This document shows, piece after piece, positions 5,129-43,916 of a stretch of 64,000 nucleotides of DNA. This DNA is from Syntrophothermus lipocalidus DSM 12680 (GTDB taxonomy: Bacteria > Bacillota > Syntrophomonadia > Syntrophomonadales > Syntrophothermaceae). Made by a program: the position numbers and the translations under genes. A model generated the notes under the pieces. It did no database searches, was not told where the DNA came from, and saw only the letters and a list, made by a program, of their open reading frames with translations. Every line of letters begins with the position of its first letter. The stretch's first letter is position 1. Location of the stretch: assembly GCF_000092405.1 (NCBI RefSeq), contig NC_014220.1:620001-684000 (forward strand), given 5' to 3'.

Positions 5129-7332
5129 TGAAGGACAAGCCGGTGTGGCGAGAAATGGGACTGACTGATGAAGAATACGCTCAGATTAGGAACATTTTAG
5201 GCCGGGAGCCAAACTATCTCGAACTCGGTATGTTTGCCGTCATGTGGTCGGAACACTGCGGCTACAAGAACTCCCGGCCGGTCTTGAAGCTATTCCCTAC
5301 TTCAGGTCCTCGGGTTATCCAGGGGCCTGGTGAAAACGCAGGGGTGGTGGACATCGGAGATAATCAAGCGCTGGTTTTCAAGATTGAGAGTCACAACCAC
5401 CCTTCAGCTGTAGAGCCGTACCAGGGGGCAGCCACGGGAGTAGGCGGGATTGTACGCGACATTTTTACCATGGGGGCTCGCCCTATCGCTATTCTCGACT
5501 CGCTGCGGTTCGGCCCAATCGAGGACGAGCGAGTTAGATATCTTTTTTCGGGTGTGGTCTCCGGTATCGGAGGTTACGGGAATTGTTTAGGTATACCAAC
5601 CGTAGCCGGGGAGGTTTATTTCGAAGAGAGCTACCAGGGCAACCCCCTGGTAAACGCCATGTGTGTGGGCTTGGCCAACATCGACGACATCGCTTTGGCC
5701 GTAGCCGGGGAGATAGGGAGCCCGTTGATGGTGGTCGGGGCTAAGACCGGCAGGGACGGCATTCACGGGGCAACCTTCGCTTCCGAGGAACTTTCGGAGG
5801 AATCTGCTGACAAGAGACCCTCGGTCCAGGTAGGAGACCCGTTTATGGAGAAACTTTTGATCGAGGCCTGCTTGGAAATCATCCGGGAAGACCTGGTTTT
5901 TGGAATGCAGGATTTGGGAGCGGCAGGACTGACCAGTGCGGTAGCCGAGATGGCGGGCAAAGGGGACCGGGGAGTAGAGATCGACGTTTTGCTGGTTCCG
6001 AGACGGGAAGAGGGCATGACCCCTTATGAGGTGATGCTTTCGGAATCTCAGGAACGGATGCTGATCTGTCCTAAACCAGGAAAGGAAGACCGGATTCGCG
6101 AGATATTTGACAAGTGGGGGTTGGATGCGGCGGTTATTGGAAGAGTGACAGGTGACGGGATCTTTAGGGTAAAGGAGGGAGACCAGGTAGCAGGGGAGGT
6201 GCCGGTAGCCGGACTGACCAAGATGTGCCCGGTCTATTACCGCCAGGCGGAAGAGCCCGACTACTACCGAGAAAAGAAGGCTTTTGATCCGATGAGCCTG
6301 CCTGAGCCTGAGGACTACAACCTTGCGTTAAAGCAACTACTCGCGTCTCCGAATATTGCCAACAAGGAGTGGGTATATACCCAGTACGACTACCAAGTTA
6401 TGATCAACACGGCAATAGTACCTGGAAAAGCAGATGCCGCGGTAATGAGGGTCAAAGGTCATAAGAAAGGAGTGGCTCTCACCGCGGATGGCAACGGGCG
6501 CATGGTATTTTTAGACCCTTTCCGGGGCGGGATGCTGGCTGTGTGCGAAGCGGCCCAGAACCTGGCTTGTACAGGGGCCAAACCTTTGGCTTTGACCAAT
6601 TGTTTGAACTTTGGTAACCCGGAAAAACCGCATGTTTTCTGGCAGTTTGAGCAGGCAGTAAAAGGCATGGCAGCTGCGGCCAAGGAGTTAGAGATACCGG
6701 TAGTGAGCGGAAACGTGAGTTTTTATAACGAGACTAACGGGGAAGCCATCTACCCTACTCCCGTAGTAGGGATGGTCGGCCTCATCGATGACATTGAAAA
6801 ACGCACGGACATGGCTTTCAAAAACGATGACGACCTAATCCTGTTGATCGGAGGAATTAGAACTGAACTGGGTGGCAGCGAGTATTTGAAAGTTATGCAC
6901 CGGTTAGTAGCAGGTGAGGTGCCTGAAGTAAATCTCGTCCGGGAAAAAGCCCTCATCGATTTCCTATTGGCTGTGATTAGGAGCGGGTGGGTGAATTCCT
7001 GCCACGATATTTCGGATGGAGGGCTAGCCGTAGCCTTGGCTGAAGGGGCCATCACCGGGGGGCTGGGGTTTACGGTACAACTCGACCCAGAATGGCGGCC
7101 GGACGCTGTCCTTTTCAGCGAGGCCCCGGGGCGGGCGGTGATAACCATCTCTTGGTTGCATTTCGATGATGTGCTGGCCGCAGCCAAGAGTCACGGGGTC
7201 GAAGCCAGGGTCATGGGCAAGGTGGGAGGAGATAGACTGCTCTTCCGGAAAGGGCAGCGAGAAGTAATAAACCTGGGTGTAGAGGAGGCAGCAGCGCTTT
7301 GGGAGGGAGCTATAAGATGTTTCATGAGTTAG
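5128..7332 (+). CDS. purL: FGAM synthase subunit PurL
   Basis: A 734-residue small-form PurL, the ATP-dependent synthase part of FGAM synthase, needing PurS and Pur[17 protein letters not shown] and [20 protein letters not shown] are the expected N-terminal ATP/FGAR motifs, and two AIRS-type domains follow. The ATG at 5128 overlaps the purQ stop (TGATG) and has AAGGGGG upstream. The 3' end overlaps purF by 16 bases, indicating coupled translation. Confidence 0.97.
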
Positions 7333-35800: not shown

Positions 35801-35880
35801 CAGGTAAAAATCGAGCGACAAGTCCTGGTTCGGCGGGAAGAGACCAAGAGGCTCCATCTGATTTAAGACCTTCAGTAAGT

Positions 35881-35918
35881 AAAAACCCCTGAGCCGGCAC
35901 CTGTAGCCGGCCCAGGGG
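35881..35918 (-). terminator. Strong rho-independent terminator, minus strand
   Basis: CCCCTG (35886-35891) with GCCGGC pairs with GCCGGC and CAGGGG (35913-35918). On the minus strand the hairpin is followed by TTTTT. It ends any minus-strand transcript coming from 36249 and beyond. It lies 80 bases after the DUF389 stop but lacks a U-run on the plus strand. Confidence 0.85.
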
Positions 35919-36240
35919 TGAATCTTTGAGTGCGGCGTGCCCAGGAAAGCACGCACTTTCCGGTCGGGGTAAGCGCCAAGGCACGCCCCCGCCAGAATGC
36001 CTGCGTAAAGGGAAATCCTTGCGCAGAAGCCCATCGACTAAAGTACTCCCCGGAGCCTGAGGGCGAGCAAGTTGCCGGACCGCAATATAAGCTATATAAA
36101 GTGAATCCTGCCGCGTCGACCAAAAGGGCCCGAGGAGGAGAAAGGGGAGACCGAACCCCGCGCACATGGGCGAAGGCCATGGGAGCCGTGAGGTACCTGG
36201 AAGAGTAGCGGCGAAGATCCGTCGCAGCGTTGAGGGAGCG
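35886..36240 (-). ncRNA. Candidate structured non-coding RNA (GC-rich, highly foldable)
   Basis: About 350 bases without a convincing gene, visibly richer in G+C than the flanks and ending in the minus-strand terminator. Several strong hairpins are visible: CTGCG/CGCAG with AAAGG/CCTT inside (36001-36026); GCGTGCC (35935-35941) with GGCACGC (35980-35986), enclosing CCAGGAAAG/CTTTCCGG; CATGG/CCATG around 36166-36182. Frames are open on both strands, as expected of GC-rich RNA genes rather than proteins. It matched no RNase P, tmRNA, SRP, 6S or riboswitch signature that I know. It could also be a long 3' UTR of the sucrose genes. Confidence 0.45.
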
Positions 36241-36248
36241 GTTTGTCT

Positions 36249-36971
36249 TTAAGTGATAATCCCGTAATGTTGAAGAGCCTCCAAAATACCCCCCGCATGG
36301 GGCCTACTTGCCCTGTAAACCGTTGAAGGTAGTAACGAAGGCAGTATCTCACCGTTTGCAACTATTACTCCCCGATACCCCATCTGCAGCATATCAAGAT
36401 CGTTTCCACCATCTCCACAAACAAGCACTTTCTCTGATGGCAGGTTCAAGCGGGAAACAAGATATTTCAATGCCGGGCCTTTACCAGCCGCGGCAGGGAT
36501 AATGTCTACATTGCGGTCACTCACTATTACGCGTACAGCAAGGCCACTCAAGGCATTTATCAGTAGTGGCATAGATTCTTCTTTTAGTAAACGATAAGCC
36601 CTGCGCCAAGGCGAACGAATGCCTTGAGGAGAAAGACCAGGAATACCTGCCACTATCTCTTCTATCTTCTTGTTATCCCAGCCCTCGCTAAACCCGCTTT
36701 CCCATGTTCGATCCCGCCGAAATTCAGGCCGGTAGCGAATGACCGTGCCGACATCTGCGACCAGAACATCTGGAATCAGAAGGGCTTCGGTATTTATGAG
36801 TTTAAAGGCGGAAAAACTATGCCTGCCGGTGAGATAAATCAGAAATATCTCTCGTCGCCGCAGAGCTAGCCAGGAGTTGAGTTCTGTCAGTGTTTTCGGA
36901 TCCCCTACCAAGGTATCATCCAGGTCTGTTGCTAAGATGAGGAAAGGGTTGTCTTTTTGCCGTGACTCCAT
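36249..36971 (-). CDS. Sucrose-phosphate phosphatase-like HAD hydrolase
   Basis: A 240-residue HAD phosphatase of the sucrose-phosphatase type. Motif I is LATDLDDTLVGD, motif II YLTGRHSFSA, and the C-terminal motif IV CGDGGNDLDMLQMG. It would dephosphorylate sucrose 6-phosphate (or a related sugar such as mannosylfructose phosphate). The ATG, behind GAGGTGGGAG, lies inside the last 40 bases of the glycosyltransferase gene, so the two steps are translationally coupled. Confidence 0.85.
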   Translation of the reverse strand: MESRQKDNPFLILATDLDDTLVGDPKTLTELNSWLALRRREIFLIYLTGRHSFSAFKLINTEALLIPDVLVADVGTVIRYRPEFRRDRTWESGFSEGWDNKKIEEIVAGIPGLSPQGIRSPWRRAYRLLKEESMPLLINALSGLAVRVIVSDRNVDIIPAAAGKGPALKYLVSRLNLPSEKVLVCGDGGNDLDMLQMGYRGVIVANGEILPSLLPSTVYRASRPHAGGILEALQHYGIIT

Positions 36972-38182
36972 TCTCCCACCTCATGGTAAAGCGCAGAAAG
37001 ATGTTCTACTACCTTGGGCCATATAAACTGGCGCCGTACGTGGTTGGCAGCTGCCCGTCCTATTTTAATTGCCAATGCCGGATCGTGCAACATTTCTCCC
37101 AACCTTGCTGCCAGACCCTGCGCATCACGTGGTGGGACAAGATAGCCCGTGATGCCGTCAACTACAGTGAATTTCAATCCACCCACGCGGCTGGCAATTA
37201 CCGGTGTGCCACATGCCATGGCTTCTAAGGCCACCAGCCCAAAAGTTTCGTAATACGAGGGAATGACACAGACCTCAGCCGCTCTATAGTAGAGGGGCAA
37301 TTTTTCGTGCGGTTGCGCCCCCACTGTCAGAACCCAACCGTCTAGCCTCCGGTTACAGATCTCTTCCTCCAAGTACTTCCTGGACTGCGGATCTCCTCCG
37401 ATGATTAGTACGCGAACATCCTCTATAAAGCTGGAGTTATCCCTGCTCAGCATTTCAAGAGATGTCAAAAGGGTATTTAGGCCTTTGTTCTCATCAAAGC
37501 GACCCACATAAACTACCACCTTTTTATCCTCTAGACCCAGCTGGGCTTTGCTCTCATGTCTTTTTCCGGGATGAAACAGCATGGGATCTACACCGCACGG
37601 CACCAATGCAATCCGTTCGCTACAGGCTCCATAGTCCTTAATAAGCCGCTCCATTTCTTCCGGTGCCGTGGCCACAACACAATTGACCCCTTCAACAATT
37701 TTTCTTTCAGCCTCCAGACGTCGGAGTAGGCCTATCCCCTTCAGCCCAGTTTCACTGGCTTTAATGCTTCCTAAAGAATGAGAGGTATGCACCTGGGGAA
37801 CACCGAGATATTCCTTAAGGTTAAGGCCAGCCAAACCGGAGAGCCAGTAATTGGAATGAATAATGTCGTATCTCTTCTTGCTCCAGTTCAAATATTCTTT
37901 GAGTTCTCTAACGAAGTGCTGCACATAGCCGTATAGCTCGTCTTTTGGGATAAACTCTTTTCGCCCGGCTGCTAACCGAATAACCGAGCCCTTTGGGCCG
38001 AGCCTTACCTGTGGTTCTACGTTGTTATCCTGCCAATGGGTGAAAACATCTACTTCCCAATCCAATTGTTGCAAACCTAAAGCCACCTGACGAACGTAAA
38101 TGTTTTGGCCACCTGACTGGATTCCCCCTAATTCGGCCAAAGGGTCACCGTGAATCGAAATGATCATAGCTCTTCGTGCCAT
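36932..38182 (-). CDS. Sucrose-phosphate synthase-like glycosyltransferase (GT4)
   Basis: A 416-residue GT-B glycosyltransferase. HGDPLAELGGIQSGGQNIYV at about residues 11-30 is the sugar-acceptor loop seen in sucrose-phosphate synthases. VVYVGRFDENKGLNTLL and the EX7E motif in YETFGLVALEAMACGTP are the nucleotide-sugar part. With the adjacent phosphatase it would make sucrose or a sucrose-like compatible solute. Mannosylfructose-phosphate synthase is a close alternative. It lies directly downstream of the osmolyte transporter operon on the same strand (95-base gap, GGATAAGGAGGAG before the ATG). Confidence 0.8.
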   Translation of the reverse strand: MARRAMIISIHGDPLAELGGIQSGGQNIYVRQVALGLQQLDWEVDVFTHWQDNNVEPQVRLGPKGSVIRLAAGRKEFIPKDELYGYVQHFVRELKEYLNWSKKRYDIIHSNYWLSGLAGLNLKEYLGVPQVHTSHSLGSIKASETGLKGIGLLRRLEAERKIVEGVNCVVATAPEEMERLIKDYGACSERIALVPCGVDPMLFHPGKRHESKAQLGLEDKKVVVYVGRFDENKGLNTLLTSLEMLSRDNSSFIEDVRVLIIGGDPQSRKYLEEEICNRRLDGWVLTVGAQPHEKLPLYYRAAEVCVIPSYYETFGLVALEAMACGTPVIASRVGGLKFTVVDGITGYLVPPRDAQGLAARLGEMLHDPALAIKIGRAAANHVRRQFIWPKVVEHLSALYHEVGEWSHGKKTTLSSS

Positions 38183-38277
38183 CTCCCCAACTCCTCCTTA
38201 TCCGCGGTATTAAGTCGACGTCTAATGCCCGTTGAAATACTGCGGACAGTTGTGCCCCTGACTCCCGAAAAGGCCAC

Positions 38278-39195
38278 CTAAAGAATTCCCTTATTCTTCA
38301 GAAAATCCGCCGCTACCTTGGCCGGATCCTCTCCTTTTTCTTTGACCAGGTAGTTCATCTGTTGCATATCAGCCTCACTGATTTTGCCGCCTAGAGAGTT
38401 CAGTGCGCTCTCCAATTCCGGATATTTTTCCAAAGTATCCATCCTTACTACGGGTGCACAGTAATACGGCGGGAAGAAATGTTTGTCATCCTCCAGAATT
38501 GTCATTCTGTAGCTAATCAATTCTCCATCGGTTGAAAAGGCATCAATGACATCGGCTTTCTTGTCAGCAACCGCTTTGTACTTCAAGCTCGTTTCCATCG
38601 CCTTCGTTTCCTTAAACGTTAGTCCGTAAGTTTCTGAAAAGCCGGGGAAGCCGTCCTTCCGGTTGTAAAACTCCTGTTCCGCACAGAAGATGAGGTCTTT
38701 GGCATAAGGTTTGAGGTCCGATATGGTCTTGAGGTTATTCTGCTCGGCAAATTCCTCTCTTACCGCAATAGCGTAAGTGTCGTTAAAACCAAATGGTTCC
38801 AGCCACTTTATCTTGAACTGCTTGTTGTATTCTTCCTGCACAATCCTGTATACCTCATCGGGATCTGTTATGACATCTCTTTTTAGAATAGCCATCAAGC
38901 CGGTGCCCGTATAGTCAGGATAGAAATCGAGCTCACCTTTTTTCAAACCCTGCCAACAAACCAGGGTTCCCCCCAGATTCAGTTTGCGGTTTACTTTAAG
39001 GTCGGTCTTGGCTTCGATAACCTGGGCCATCATTTCTCCCATTATTATGTTTTCGGTAAAGTTTTTTGAACCTACAGTCACTACGCCCCCCTTACCTGAA
39101 TCCGATGTTGATCGACTTTCACATCCGGCTGTCAAGCCTACAACCAAAAACACCGTTAATAACAGCCAGAGTCCTCTGAGAAATTGTTTCTTCAT
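38278..39195 (-). CDS. Osmoprotectant ABC transporter, substrate-binding lipoprotein (OpuCC/OsmX type)
   Basis: A 305-residue lipoprotein. The signal peptide ends in LTAGC with the lipidated Cys at residue 25. GSKNFTENIIMGEMMAQVIE and GELDFYPDYTGTG are hallmarks of the OpuBC/OpuCC/YehZ family binding glycine betaine, choline or carnitine. ATG 39195 has GGAGGAAAGGG upstream. It is the last gene of the transporter operon. Confidence 0.93.
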   Translation of the reverse strand: MKKQFLRGLWLLLTVFLVVGLTAGCESRSTSDSGKGGVVTVGSKNFTENIIMGEMMAQVIEAKTDLKVNRKLNLGGTLVCWQGLKKGELDFYPDYTGTGLMAILKRDVITDPDEVYRIVQEEYNKQFKIKWLEPFGFNDTYAIAVREEFAEQNNLKTISDLKPYAKDLIFCAEQEFYNRKDGFPGFSETYGLTFKETKAMETSLKYKAVADKKADVIDAFSTDGELISYRMTILEDDKHFFPPYYCAPVVRMDTLEKYPELESALNSLGGKISEADMQQMNYLVKEKGEDPAKVAADFLKNKGIL

Positions 39196-39214
39196 AGCCC
39201 TTTCCTCCATTCCT

Positions 39215-39838
39215 CTAAATGTTTTGAGCAACAGTGTTGCTAAGACCTTTCGGAGCTATGAACCGCTCCAGTTTGCTTAAGCCAGCGTCTGAAACAACAG
39301 CCAGCAAAGCAGCCGGAACAGCTCCTGAAAGGATCATCGCGGTGTTCATTTGCTGCATTCCCCTCCAAATAGGAGCCCCCAACCCGCCAGCACCGATCAA
39401 TACACCGATGGCAGCTATACCGATGGCTGTAACCGTAGCTACTCTGATGCCGGCCATGATTACCGGCAGAGCCAACGGTAGCTGAACCATGCGTAGAAGT
39501 TGCCACCTTGTCATACCCATTCCCTTTGCAGCTTCGATTAACGCCCCGTCAATCCCAATTATTCCGATATAAGTGTTCCTCACAATTGGGAGAAGCGAGT
39601 ACACGAGTAGTGCCATAATCAGAGGAGTATCCCCTAATCCCAACCACAACATAAACAAAGCCAGAAGAGCAAGGGCCGGTATAGTCTGCATAACATCCGT
39701 AAACCCCACTACTAACTGGGCTGCCCAACGGTTCCCGGTAATCAGGTATCCTATTGGAACCCCGATCAAGATGGCCAGACCAACTCCTGCCAGCGTCAGT
39801 TCAAGGTGTTGGATACTGAGTAACCAGATATTAAACAT
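39215..39838 (-). CDS. Osmoprotectant ABC transporter permease (OpuCD/OpuCB type)
   Basis: A 207-residue inner-membrane permease with about five or six hydrophobic segments. IEAAKGMGMTRWQLLRMVQL is the EAA loop that contacts the ATPase, and IGAGGLGAPIWRGMQQMNT follows as usual. ATG 39838 behind GGGAGGTGAAAAC is chosen. It overlaps the end of neither neighbour and precedes the binding-protein gene by 19 bases. Confidence 0.92.
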   Translation of the reverse strand: MFNIWLLSIQHLELTLAGVGLAILIGVPIGYLITGNRWAAQLVVGFTDVMQTIPALALLALFMLWLGLGDTPLIMALLVYSLLPIVRNTYIGIIGIDGALIEAAKGMGMTRWQLLRMVQLPLALPVIMAGIRVATVTAIGIAAIGVLIGAGGLGAPIWRGMQQMNTAMILSGAVPAALLAVVSDAGLSKLERFIAPKGLSNTVAQNI

Positions 39839-39842
39839 GTTT

Positions 39843-40499
39843 TCACCTCCCTTCATCTGGAACTAATTGGCTTCCCCGAGGGGTCAAGAACATCTCAACT
39901 TTACCCAGTATCCACCCCGCCCCGATGGCTAAAACGGCGGTGGGAACAGTGCCAGCGATGATAAAGTTGGCATCCGCTGTCTGTATCCCAGTAATGATGA
40001 GGTCTCCAAGTCCCCCCGCTCCGATGAAGGCGGCCAGGGTAGCCCAACTAATCAGATAGACGGTGGAAATACGTACACCGGCCATAATAATAGGTAAGGC
40101 CAACGGAAACTTAACCATCCATAGCAGCTGACGCGAGTTCATCCCCACGCCTGTTCCGGCCTCAATATACACAGGGTTAACATTTCTTATACCGGTATAG
40201 GTATTCCGTATAACCGGCAGGAGCGAATACAGGACCAGGACGACCATCGCGGGAAGGGGGCCTATCCCCAACAACGGCAGTACAAACCCCAGAAGCGCCA
40301 GGCTGGGAATAGTCTGAATACTGCCCGTCGCTGCAAGGACGTAATCAGCCAGCTTTTCTCGTCTTGTTAGCCAAATGCCAAAAGGGATGGCGATCAAGCA
40401 CCCGATCAATTCTGATCCCAGGGCCAAGTAGAGGTGTTGTACCGTTGCCGTAATAATGGTCGTTGAATTCATACTTAGAAATTGGCTGAAGCTAATCAT
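39843..40499 (-). CDS. Osmoprotectant ABC transporter permease (OpuCB/OpuCD type)
   Basis: A 218-residue permease paralogous to the next gene. IEAGTGVGMNSRQLLWMVKF is the EAA loop and FIGAGGLGDLIITGIQTAD the following signature. ATG 40499 is preferred because GGGGGG lies 6 bases upstream; ATG 40505 touches it. Its start overlaps the ATPase gene end by 8 bases. Confidence 0.92.
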   Translation of the reverse strand: MISFSQFLSMNSTTIITATVQHLYLALGSELIGCLIAIPFGIWLTRREKLADYVLAATGSIQTIPSLALLGFVLPLLGIGPLPAMVVLVLYSLLPVIRNTYTGIRNVNPVYIEAGTGVGMNSRQLLWMVKFPLALPIIMAGVRISTVYLISWATLAAFIGAGGLGDLIITGIQTADANFIIAGTVPTAVLAIGAGWILGKVEMFLTPRGSQLVPDEGR

Positions 40500-41613
40500 T
40501 CTCATCCCCCCAAACCACCGATGCCATTGCGTTGACCATACTGGTTCTAGTCACCAGGCCTCTTAGATGACGTTGTGCGTCTACCACCGGCAGGTACTTC
40601 AATTTGCCACCGACCATCAAGTCAAAGGCGTCTTTGGCGGAAGTAGAGTTTAGCACCGTGACCAGATTGTGATCCGCAATTTCGCCAATTCTATAAACAC
40701 GTTGGTGTTCGCGGTCCAGGTCCTCTATGCTTACCCCACCTACCAAAACCCCCTCTTCATCGACCACCAGCACGGTATCTACCCGCTTGCGCTTCATGAG
40801 GGCCAGGCATTCGGCGAGTCCCATTGACGGCAGGACTGTCACGGGGTTGAGATGCATGACCTGTTCAACCGTCAACAGCGCGTAATTGCCCCTTCTGTTT
40901 TTGCCGACAAAGGAGGCTACAAAATCGTCTGCAGGTTTGCGCAGAAGATCTTCCGGCGTAGCGACCTGTATGACCTGTCCCTCCTTCATCACCACCACCC
41001 TGTCGGCCAGTTTTAGTGCTTCGTCTATGTCGTGAGTGACAAAGATGATAGTCTTACGTAACCTTTTTTGCAGGTTTTTAAGCTCGTCTTGAAGGGCTTC
41101 CCTGGAAATGGGATCTAGGGCCCCGAAAGGCTCATCCATCAGAATCAAAGGCGGGTCCGCAGCCAAGGCCCGCAGAACTCCGATTCGCTGCTGTTGCCCG
41201 CCGGAAAGCTCATTGGGGTAGCGATTGGCGTATACGTCAGGGTCCATACCTGCCATTTCCAATAATTCGTGTGCCCTGGCCCTGCTCTTTGTGGCAGGCC
41301 ATTCTAACAACCTCGGTACCACGGTTATGTTTTCTTCTACCGTCATATGGGGAAAGAGACCGATCTGCTGAATGACATAGCCTATCTGTCTCCTTAGGGC
41401 TACCGGATCTACATCCCGAACATTTTTCCCGTTTACCAGAATATCTCCTTCCGTTGGCTCGACAAGCCGGTTCACCATTTTCAGGGTGGTTGTTTTGCCA
41501 CATCCGCTGGGTCCTATCAGAACAACAAGCTCGCCCTCTTCCACCTCAAGGTTCAAGTTTTTCACTGCTATGTGGCCGTTGTAGTCCTTGCTCACTGCTT
41601 TGAATTTAACCAC
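40492..41613 (-). CDS. Osmoprotectant ABC transporter ATPase with CBS domains (OpuCA type)
   Basis: A 373-residue ATPase. Walker A is [14 protein letters not shown] (near residue 33), the signature is [16 protein letters not shown] and Walker B is [13 protein letters not shown]. Two CBS domains occupy about residues 255-368 ([35 protein letters not shown]). In Listeria and Staphylococcus the CBS domains of OpuCA bind c-di-AMP and inhibit transport, so the same is inferred here. GTG start, with GGAGG about 12 bases upstream. First gene of the operon. Confidence 0.94.
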
Positions 41614-41636
41614 TTAATACAGCTACCTCCTTGTGT

Positions 41637-41665
41637 ACTATAGAGTTAGTTTTAGTCAGCTCCAA
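41637..41665 (-). promoter_or_regulatory. Probable sigma-A promoter of the osmolyte transporter operon
   Basis: On the minus strand TTGGAG (41660-41665) and TATAGT (41637-41642) are 17 bases apart. The start site would lie only about 17 bases before the GTG, right at the GGAGG site. If used, the mRNA would not contain the c-di-AMP riboswitch at 42430-42560. Confidence 0.5.
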
Positions 41666-41817
41666 GCCAATAGACCTGATCCTTGACAACCACACAGGAA
41701 TCCTGGGGCAACTTGGATAAATATTCTCGTAGAGGCAGGGGGCTTCGATCACCTCTTTGGGAGGCAATGCTATCCCTCACGAAAGAGTGAAGCCCCCATA
41801 CGAGAGGACTCGAATGA

Positions 41818-42205
41818 GCACGTTTTCCCAACGCCCGGGCCCTCGTGGCCTATGGCGGAGTGGATGCCTCCGTCAGGGCTTCGGGTCTGTTTGAGGGCAC
41901 CCGTAATCGGATGTCTAAACGTGGCTCCCCTATGCTTAGAAACAGCCTGTGGTTGGCTGCTGTTTCGGCCCGTCGCTTTAACCCGGAATTGAAAGCCTAT
42001 TATGAGTTAAAATGCCGTCAGGGAAAGCATCCGAGTGTTGCTACCGGAGCTGTTGCCAGACGGCTTGTTCATCTGATTTACTCTCCTCTGGAAAGATAAC
42101 CGACCATATGACCCGAATTATCGATGGTCCCGGCCAAAGCAGCAAAAATAACCAGGATCCCTATGTGATTGTCCAAGATATTTTTGCTTTAGTCTATTGA
42201 CTTTT
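41818..42205 (+). pseudogene. IS110-family transposase remnant (C-terminal part)
   Basis: The reading ARFPNARALVAYGGVDASVR, then FEGTRNRMSKRGSPMLRNSL and GKHPSVATGAVARRLVHLIY, is the C-terminal transposase domain of IS110/IS116/IS902 elements. Only about 94 residues remain up to the stop at 42099; a stop codon sits just before them at 41815 and the RuvC-like N-terminal half is missing. The short right flank ends around TTGACTTTTTATAG (42187-42200), which resembles IS110-type right ends. It is oriented opposite to the transporter operon and lies between it and the riboswitch. Confidence 0.85.
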
Positions 42206-42429
42206 TATAGCACGTCTTTCGTTAGGATAAATAATCTGTAAAAAGGCAATTACATCCTACAGGGCAGGTTTTATCATGCCCGCCGAGAGGGCACCATTAA
42301 CACGTCCGTACACTGAATAGGCGCATAAGGTTGCTTCCACCAAAGGTTCATTATTTCCTAAGTCACAGGAAACTCAGGGGGAGACTTAAAGGGGCAAAAT
42401 TGTGAAAGTGAGACTCAAGAATGAACCCC
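42206..42429. other. Spacer between IS110 remnant and riboswitch
   Basis: About 220 bases with no gene. On the minus strand it is the region just downstream of the riboswitch. It contains small inverted repeats, CCTGAGT/ACTTAGG (42357-42378) and GGGCA/TGCCC (42262-42281), but neither is followed by a clear U-run, so no terminator could be assigned. Confidence 0.4.
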
Positions 42430-42560
42430 ACCCTCTCCCTTTACGCTTACGAGGTTAGCTGACGGATTCGGGCCAGGGCGCCCTACCAGCAGTAACTGCC
42501 GGATTCACCCCAAAACGTTGGGTCCCCCGCTTCCGGGCCTGGCGACCCGGAATTCAGCAT
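42430..42560 (-). ncRNA. c-di-AMP riboswitch (ydaO/yuaA leader)
   Basis: On the minus strand the conserved strings follow in order: GGAAGCGGGGGACCCAA, GGGGTGAATCCGGC, GGTAGGGC, CCGAATCCGTCAGCTAACC and CTCGTAAGCG. These are the signature of the ydaO aptamer, which binds two c-di-AMP molecules and normally switches genes off. Known targets include cell-wall hydrolases and potassium or osmolyte transporters. The next intact minus-strand genes downstream are the OpuC-type operon, 820 bases away, with an IS110 remnant in between. A TATATA box lies just upstream (about 42583-42590), but no matching -35 was found. Confidence 0.92.
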
Positions 42561-42658
42561 ACAAGATGGGCTTCGCGGCCGATATATAATTTTTACCCCA
42601 TGTAGGGGTTATGAATTTTGGCCTTGGCAAAACCTCCTTCAAGACTCGACAGTCCCAG

Positions 42659-42922
42659 TCAACTTCTTACCCTAATCTTCCATTCATTTCCTCCTATCCT
42701 AGAGGGTAACCCCATTCTTACAATCAAGTCAAGTTTATAAGCAGCAATACGGTTGTGAACTTGTATGCTGTCCCAGCTACAGTCCCCAAAAACAATCTTA
42801 GGCTTGGTCTGTGGGCCGGTCTGGGACTGCTTTTCATTTTGATCACAACCAGAAACCGTGAAAACAACCGTCAAAGCAAGTAAGACGAAATACAACAACA
42901 CACGATGCTTAGCCAAGGACAT
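42659..42922 (-). pseudogene. Truncated glycine-betaine binding lipoprotein (ProX/OpuAC type)
   Basis: A signal peptide with lipobox VSGC is followed by KPKIVFGDCSWDSIQVHNRI, the start of the mature part of glycine-betaine binding proteins. The similarity then breaks off and the frame ends after about 87 residues, where 280 or more would be expected. The ATG at 42922 has GGGGGAG 8 bases upstream and a good promoter, so the 5' end is intact and the 3' part was lost by deletion or rearrangement. Confidence 0.8.
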
Positions 42923-42973
42923 AGCCGATACTCCCCCTTCACAAGCTGTTTGCGATAGTTGCTTTGTTTTTAA

Positions 42974-43002
42974 ATTATATCCCAAACAAAGACATCTGAC
43001 AA
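42974..43002 (-). promoter_or_regulatory. Sigma-A promoter of the truncated binding-protein gene
   Basis: On the minus strand TTGTCA (42997-43002) and TATAAT (42974-42979) are separated by exactly 17 bases. It lies about 50 bases before the ATG at 42922. Transcription from it could run through the truncated gene into the c-di-AMP riboswitch. Confidence 0.75.
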
Positions 43003-43095
43003 CCTTAAAGTAATTATGAAGTTGGTGGAAGCGCCATAAAAAAATTCGGGCCCGAGCCGAAATGCCATGCGTATGCCATTAGCCATGTTTAGACA

Positions 43096-43188
43096 GAGCC
43101 GATGTGTTGCAGGCGAGGAGTCTTGGAGCGAGTCTGCTAACACTCCTCTGCGAAACGTCGTTCTAAACTGTTTTCGTTCTCTAGTGGT
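43096..43188. repeat. Partial copy of the dispersed palindromic repeat
   Basis: Bases 43096-43143 are the inverted complement of 32666-32713 with only two visible mismatches in 48. Bases 43171-43188 match 33005-33022 directly with two mismatches (TTTTC followed by CTAGTGGT). This copy lacks the inner arms of the full element. It fills most of the 321-base gap between the truncated binding-protein gene and busR; no gene is credible there. Confidence 0.7.
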
Positions 43189-43244
43189 GAGACTTTTAAG
43201 TGTCGCCAGGGTCTTTGGTTTATTTGTGAAGAGGGTGAAGCGTC

Positions 43245-43916
43245 TTACGTGTTAACGAGGTCATACACCTTATTTTTACTTTCCGGAGGGCCTACAAAGA
43301 CAAGTATGTCTGCTTCTTGTATGATGAAGGAAACGTCAGGAGAGAAAATCTGCTCACCGTTACGTTCTACGGCTAAGACTGTGGCTCCGGTCCTGGCCCT
43401 GAAATCTACTGCAGACAGACTCTTACCGACCAGGTATGATCCCCTGGGAACCTGGATTTCTTCGATTTTTTGTAACCGCCCCGCCATTCTCGTGGTATAG
43501 GCGACCAGTTTATTGAGTATCTCATCTATTTCTCGATTAAGTCTATTTCTTTCTTCCACCAATTGTACTATTTGATTACACATGTCTTGTACAATGTAAC
43601 GAGATTCGAATTCTTTAATGAAGGCTTCGGCTGCTTCAGCGGTTCCTACAATTATTCCGCGTCCCGGCTGGGCAACTACTACATTCATGCTCTGCAAAAG
43701 CGCGACAGCCCGTCTGATTGTCTCCGGCGAAACATTGTATTGACCAGCTAATGCGGAACGACCGTAAAGTTTTTCTCCTTGCTTATAGTGTTTACGTGCA
43801 ATTTTCGAAGCAATCTCGAGAGCTATCTGTTCATAACGCGGCATATCGGAAGTGGAACGCTCGTTCTTATTCTTGTTTCGGCCATTGTTCGAGCCTGAGA
43901 GAATTGAAGATTTCAT
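43245..43916 (-). CDS. busR: GntR-family regulator with RCK_C domain (BusR-like)
   Basis: A 223-residue regulator. The winged helix is YEQIALEIASKIARKHYKQG with SALAGQYNVSPETIRRAVAL (about residues 28-80). A helical linker of about residues 115-150 leads to a C-terminal RCK_C/TrkA_C domain (VPRGSYLVGKSLSAVDFRAR). In streptococci and lactococci BusR has this layout, binds c-di-AMP and represses a betaine transporter. Location beside osmolyte-uptake genes and a c-di-AMP riboswitch supports the same role. AGGAGGT lies before the ATG. A perfect BusR operator was not found near the opuC or truncated-gene promoters. Confidence 0.85.
   Translation of the reverse strand: MKSSILSGSNNGRNKNKNERSTSDMPRYEQIALEIASKIARKHYKQGEKLYGRSALAGQYNVSPETIRRAVALLQSMNVVVAQPGRGIIVGTAEAAEAFIKEFESRYIVQDMCNQIVQLVEERNRLNREIDEILNKLVAYTTRMAGRLQKIEEIQVPRGSYLVGKSLSAVDFRARTGATVLAVERNGEQIFSPDVSFIIQEADILVFVGPPESKNKVYDLVNT

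Follow-up and report, generated by a model that had tools for sequence, protein, structure and literature searches.

The window examined here, a 64-kb stretch of the Syntrophothermus lipocalidus DSM 12680 genome to which all plain coordinates refer (the genome, G000, is a single contig of 2,405,559 bases), contains a locus for uptake and synthesis of protective solutes that carries three types of element linked to cyclic diadenosine monophosphate (c-di-AMP). These are a ydaO/yuaA riboswitch, an OpuC-type transporter whose ATPase has CBS domains and whose genes are followed by those for a sucrose-phosphate synthase (SPS)-like enzyme and a sucrose-phosphate phosphatase (SPP), and a BusR-like regulator with GntR and RCK_C domains. 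The locus probably arose by fusion of two formerly separate c-di-AMP-linked modules. The first module would be an inherited CBS-type OpuC operon led by the riboswitch and extended by SPS and SPP in this genome. The second would comprise the BusR-type regulator and, from a former OpuA-type operon, the promoter and operator; of that operon, all but roughly 70 codons at the start of the binding protein gene appears to have been deleted, with a homology break about 75 nt 5' of the riboswitch. An IS110 element would have entered the leader of the first module and later decayed. A first-pass annotation had placed the SPS and SPP genes, OpuC with CBS domains, ydaO and the GntR–RCK_C gene together, as domain and Rfam matches confirm, and had read them as one control island. 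The parts do adjoin, but the OpuA relic and the insertion sequence (IS) remnant that intervene had been overlooked.

Relatives normally have a ydaO riboswitch ahead of a CBS-type OpuC operon. In G060, a genome of the same family whose opuCA is 88% identical to that of the window, the riboswitch (L195 7084–7224) lies directly 5' of opuCA with no IS in the leader, and no BusR is present in that genome. The riboswitch also directly precedes opuCA in genomes G001–G004 and G059. The window aptamer covers positions 1-134 of the RF00379 model with a score far over chance, its helices covary across 28 relatives, and the G060 leader is 80% homologous over window positions 42642-42380. The transporter genes encode a ProV-type ATPase with two CBS domains, permeases and an OpuAC-type binding protein. 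The CBS region of the window OpuCA aligns with the CBS domain of Listeria OpuCA (5ks7; E 1.7e-21), and in that alignment the c-di-AMP contact residues of L. monocytogenes OpuCA (V260, V280, T282, Y342, I355 and R358) are identical in the window protein except for I355L, although such identity would not in itself prove binding. The window protein resembles the Listeria (5ks7) and Staphylococcus (5iip) OpuCA sensors in joining an ATPase to two CBS domains and in largely keeping these positions, and differs from them in that its CBS domains are known from sequence alone.

The riboswitch and the CBS domains most likely give c-di-AMP control of both OpuC expression and OpuC activity, as in relatives. 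At low osmolarity c-di-AMP would switch the leader off and close the transporter through the CBS domains, with the result that expression and activity of one importer would both be lowered. Such RNA-plus-protein control is plausible and ordinary; c-di-AMP control at both expression and activity has already been described for another transporter, KimA (a title cited in PMC9337991). The host presumably makes c-di-AMP since its genome encodes two diadenylate cyclases, one of which adjoins a glmS ribozyme, as would be expected for a cdaA–glmM–glmS locus. Riboswitches for c-di-AMP were found in 257 of the 398 genomes of the Bacillota sample, and GntR–RCK_C proteins in 88.

The second module is recognizable from what lies between the busR-like gene and the riboswitch. 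A short open reading frame there matches the binding protein encoded after busR in genome G050 (blastp, 49% identity over 41 amino acids, E 3e-11). The homology covers only residues 21-68 of the tblastn query and is followed by unrelated sequence and a stop, and no more binding protein or permease homology was recognized in three frames from the relic to the riboswitch. Judged by this match, the relic is a truncated copy, confined to the N-terminus, of the OpuAC-type binding protein whose gene comes after busR in G050; there, an intact OpuA-type operon without CBS domains or a riboswitch stands next to the regulator gene. An OpuA-type operon was likely the former target of the window BusR, and such an operon is probably what the regulator controls in a relative. 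The idea that BusR targets opuC by simple adjacency was set aside in view of the OpuAC relic and the G050 context.

The sequence ahead of the relic retains promoter and operator features. A promoter matching the consensus at 11 of 12 positions (TTGTCA-17-TATAAT) is the best on its strand within 43250-41601, and its layout matches that of the G050 opuAC promoter (TTGTTA-17-TATAAT). Its −35 box overlaps the right arm of a dyad, CAACTT-N13-AAGGTTG, which is the candidate BusR operator. This dyad is the sole match in the 64 kb, where 0.02 would be expected, as well as in the 2.4-Mb genome, and a flexible pattern found no other BusR-type dyad in the genome. The intergenic regions after busR in G050 and G096 contain the dyads AACAACTT-N12-AGGTTGTT and GACAACTT-N12-AAGTTGTC, respectively. 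The outer half-sites in both are 22 bp apart, with the GAC match being exact in G096 and near in G050. Every known BusR site has its half-sites 22 bp apart, and binding is lost when the spacing is shifted by +5 or -10 bp (PMC8517857). The window dyad departs from its relatives in one outer half-site, which reads ACC instead of RAC, and in a spacer with one base more. GAC-N22-GTC is not enriched over the 82 GntR–RCK_C loci surveyed (L009, L071-L150 and the window), with three loci at spacing 22 and no peak, so the operator claim is confined to the window's clade and rests on G096 and G050. Between the busR homologue and a dapB-like gene, the G096 region (L071 11414-11560; G096:C9:39445-39506) carries a tandem pair of BusR-type dyads, of which the first has its GAC/GTC half-sites spaced by exactly 22 bp; it is a better test site than that of the window.

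The regulator itself is intact and has the BusR architecture of a GntR winged helix-turn-helix, a coiled coil and an RCK_C domain. It matches Streptococcus agalactiae BusR (7b5t) over residues 20-212 (phmmer, E 4.9e-24). Its nearest homologues are in G096 (67% identity) and G050 (59%), and within the 63 genomes sampled for the order a close homologue occurs in two, G000 and G050. The c-di-AMP pocket of S. agalactiae BusR consists of I153, G154, N157, V158, A164, T165, I166, G180 and P181 (PMC8517857). A164 and T165 are identical in the window protein, I153L and I166V are conservative, and the rest are replaced. The substitutions include G154S, H160A, G180D and P181V, as well as W159R and F182S at two patch residues described as highly conserved (PMC8517857). 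The 82 homologues fall into a class with W159 and the GP pair and a class with R159, the latter including the proteins of the window, G050 and G096. An R159-type pocket by itself would neither prove nor exclude c-di-AMP binding by the window protein. Genes of the R159 class often adjoin leuS/comEA or prmC.

Compared with the BusR–busAB (opuA) system of S. agalactiae and Lactococcus lactis (PMC5919688, PMC8517857), the window shares the GntR–RCK_C architecture, a regulator gene that precedes a glycine betaine transporter promoter and, in the closest relatives of its regulator, a bipartite operator with half-sites 22 bp apart. It differs in that only a stub of the target operon remains, in the replacement of W159, P181, F182 and G180 in the regulator, and in an operator with one changed arm and one additional base of spacing.

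It is possible, although doubtful, that the window protein is an R159-class regulator which senses a ligand other than c-di-AMP, a reading that is compatible with the fusion of two modules. The W159 class has Opu genes as neighbors far more often than the R159 class (11 of 14 versus 11 of 68; p 1.2e-5, uncorrected for relatedness), and many R159-class genes adjoin housekeeping genes. However, the 11 R159-class loci beside OpuC or OpuA include Moorella, the R159-class genes of G096 and G050 have BusR-type dyads, and RCK_C domains that bind c-di-AMP vary in sequence.

The remaining alternatives concern how opuC is transcribed, and here the altered leader becomes important. The IS110 remnant is antisense to opuCA and is absent from the G060 leader; it is single copy, and no intact IS110 copy was found elsewhere in the genome. 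Homology to G060 ends at 42380 and picks up again over 41632–38277, on either side of the remnant, with a gap of 747 nt in the window versus 155 nt in G060. The riboswitch-to-opuCA distance is 816 nt in the window versus about 214–220 nt in G060 because the remnant lies in the leader. Two scans found no intrinsic terminator in the riboswitch leader of either genome, and neither an intrinsic terminator nor a strong sigma-A-like promoter was found between the window riboswitch and opuCA. The window aptamer is like other RF00379 riboswitches in being intact and having an osmolyte transport gene downstream, and unlike them in that an IS110 remnant precedes that gene and the expression platform was not recognized. 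Since the antisense remnant intervenes, the riboswitch is only a candidate for a place on the transporter mRNA.

If the locus is a fusion of two modules, opuC transcription would probably begin at or 5' of the riboswitch, and the strongest candidate for its start would be the old BusR-controlled promoter at 43002–42974. In G001–G004 the riboswitch has its own promoter (TTGAC-type with TAGAAT/TAAAAT) 46–60 nt 5' of the aptamer, where the window has weak promoter matches at most. The riboswitch is probably still used because the aptamer is intact. Several points weigh against this account. In G001, G002 and G004 the aptamer is followed by a long, significant hairpin, the GGGGCUU/AAGCCCC platform (z −2.8 to −4.3), a fold that the window leader lacks (z −0.3), which makes the riboswitch output uncertain. 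A weak promoter match after the IS remnant (TTGGAG-17-TATAGT, 41665–41637) could drive opuC alone. The upstream flank in G060 carries its own transposase, so the ancestral flank is uncertain. The gene content, the aptamer, the relic, the insertion remnant, the dyad and promoter sequences and the order of riboswitch and opuC in relatives are observed directly; co-transcription is inferred, and so are the responses to c-di-AMP, whatever BusR control may be left and the way in which deletion and insertion proceeded.

Alternatively, BusR and its promoter could be dead or serve only the stub, with opuC being driven from within or after the IS110 remnant, riboswitch control lost, and control remaining only at the CBS domains. 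The IS110 remnant with the 747 nt of new leader, the TTGGAG-17-TATAGT candidate just 5' of opuCA and the unrecognizable platform fit this reading. We consider it unlikely, as the full conservation of the aptamer (96 bits) suggests selection and the downstream promoter is a weak match to the consensus. At the other extreme is the functional three-layer control proposed in the first-pass annotation. Loss of opuA would have captured a promoter, placing the BusR-controlled start 5' of ydaO–opuC–SPS–SPP, so that on one transcript BusR would repress initiation, the riboswitch would terminate escaping transcripts during elongation, and the CBS domains would gate the transporter, all in response to one messenger. 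The overlap of a strong promoter with the genome's sole BusR-type dyad, the intact busR reading frame and the lack of an intrinsic terminator on the opuCA strand from this promoter to opuCA are consistent with such an arrangement. The operator, however, has ACC for RAC in one arm and an additional base against a published spacing fixed at 22 bp (PMC8517857), the c-di-AMP pocket is mostly substituted, and the leader would be 1.35 kb long with an antisense IS remnant. Three active layers are possible, but we think it quite improbable that the locus operates in this manner. The riboswitch and CBS layers of that proposal are supported by an intact aptamer that relatives keep 5' of opuCA and by a CBS sequence in which the pocket positions are largely kept. 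The DNA layer is doubtful and its least certain part, with a target operon that is a stub, an altered operator and a pocket that is mostly replaced.

The combination of BusR, ydaO and CBS-type OpuC was seen in the window alone across the 82 BusR loci and a survey of the 80 named OpuCA loci nearest to the window's OpuCA. The triple is therefore new in these surveys, but it appears to be an accidental product of decay. The first-pass annotation's claim of no precedent needs to be confined to the triple, since each of its pairs recurs. Besides the ydaO–OpuC pair, BusR directly precedes CBS-type opuCA in about 15 of the loci fetched (e.g., Moorella), none of which has a riboswitch nearby. Placement of a BusR-like gene immediately ahead of OpuC or OpuA is common elsewhere in the Bacillota. 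BusR stands beside ydaO in six further loci, ahead of a KamA-type aminomutase gene and not of opuC; both of the aminomutases tested are glutamate 2,3-aminomutases (eam; TIGR04368 over cutoff). In the OpuCA survey ydaO lies upstream in 7 of 80 loci, BusR in 6 and both in none. Independence would predict about 0.5 loci with both, so no exclusion of one by the other is claimed. The BusR–ydaO–eam loci occur in two other lineages, in tandem (L091, L092 and L093) or divergent (L110, L111 and L123), and are recurrent candidates for DNA- and RNA-level c-di-AMP control at a beta-glutamate gene.

The comparison shows that osmolyte transporters of the Bacillota have traded c-di-AMP control devices with one another. 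An OpuA-type operon stands behind BusR in G050 and the same operon behind a ydaO riboswitch in G061; for OpuC the leading element is ydaO in Syntrophomonadales-type genomes and BusR in Moorella. The window may capture a BusR promoter in the process of becoming linked in series to a ydaO leader, and if the promoter is live the locus would serve as a natural experiment on whether layered c-di-AMP control adds to a single layer. The tandem Na+ and c-di-AMP riboswitches on ablA (PMC9337991) similarly join a c-di-AMP riboswitch on an osmolyte gene with a second control layer, but there RNA supplies both layers and Na+ is the other input. The locus also has a pair of sucrose synthesis genes lying 3' of a c-di-AMP riboswitch, in a host that is a heat-loving anaerobe.

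Table 1. Features of the osmolyte locus in the window
Feature	Position	Strand	Evidence or remark
Probable operon terminator, strong hairpin and U tract	about 35881–35919	−	predicted 14-bp stem, then UUUUUAC
SPP	36249–36971	−	PF05116 190.8 bits; 1s2o E 1.5e-35
SPS-like glycosyltransferase (GT4)	36932–38182	−	best PDB match Tll1590 6kih E 6.5e-86; SPP adjacent
opuCC, lipoprotein substrate-binding protein, OpuAC domain	38278–39231	−	PF04069 244 bits
Permease, OpuCB/CD type	39215–39856	−	PF00528
Permease, OpuCB/CD type	39843–40505	−	PF00528
opuCA, ATPase with two C-terminal CBS domains	40492–41613	−	TIGR01186 proV 429.5 bits vs cutoff 326.6
IS110-family transposase, C-terminal remnant	41845–42099	+	PF02371 48.3 bits; NF033542
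ydaO/yuaA c-di-AMP riboswitch aptamer	42569–42430	−	RF00379 96.3 bits vs gathering 38, E 1.6e-21
OpuA-type glycine betaine/proline binding protein relic	42985–42659	−	likely start 42922; homology 42889-42737
Promoter TTGTCA-17-TATAAT	42974–43002	−	11/12 consensus matches
BusR-type operator candidate CAACTTCATAATTACTTTAAGGTTGT	42999–43024	−	arms 13 nt apart vs 12 in relatives
Probable terminator of busR transcript	43045–43061	−	stem TTCGG/CCGAA, T7 tail
busR-like gene, GntR winged helix, coiled coil and RCK_C (TrkA_C), 223 amino acids, intact	43245–43916	−	PF00392 45.9 bits; PF02080 60.9 bits

The SPS-like protein is a GT4 enzyme nearest to a known SPS, the sucrose-phosphate synthase Tll1590 of Thermosynechococcus (6kih), and its gene adjoins that of an S6PP-family phosphatase whose best solved relative is a cyanobacterial sucrose-phosphatase (1s2o); the NCBIfam equivalog cutoffs are not reached for the pair. 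Riboswitch control perhaps reaches these two genes, and the probable operon terminator lies about 330 nt 3' of SPP. The intergenic region 3' of SPP (35870-36230) is GC-rich and structured (fold z about -2.5), includes a strong terminator hairpin at 35885-35919 on the minus strand, has no Rfam match, is single copy and is absent from the family genomes. A second link of the GntR–RCK_C family to sucrose synthesis is found at L085 9071-13169, where about 1.4 kb, including a fructokinase-like gene, separates a GntR–RCK_C gene from an SPP–SPS pair.

Other riboswitches were noted in the course of the comparison. The second c-di-AMP riboswitch of the genome (L010 7599-7792, minus strand; G000:C1 near 1495600) leads a glutamate 2,3-aminomutase gene (5970-7223, minus strand; TIGR04368 685 bits vs cutoff 650) associated with the osmolyte beta-glutamate. 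L203 4148-11506 in G040 contains tandem duplicate Opu operons, one of which is preceded by a ydaO aptamer. A guanidine-I riboswitch (66.6 vs gathering 63 bits) is located at 1404-1502 on the plus strand of the window.

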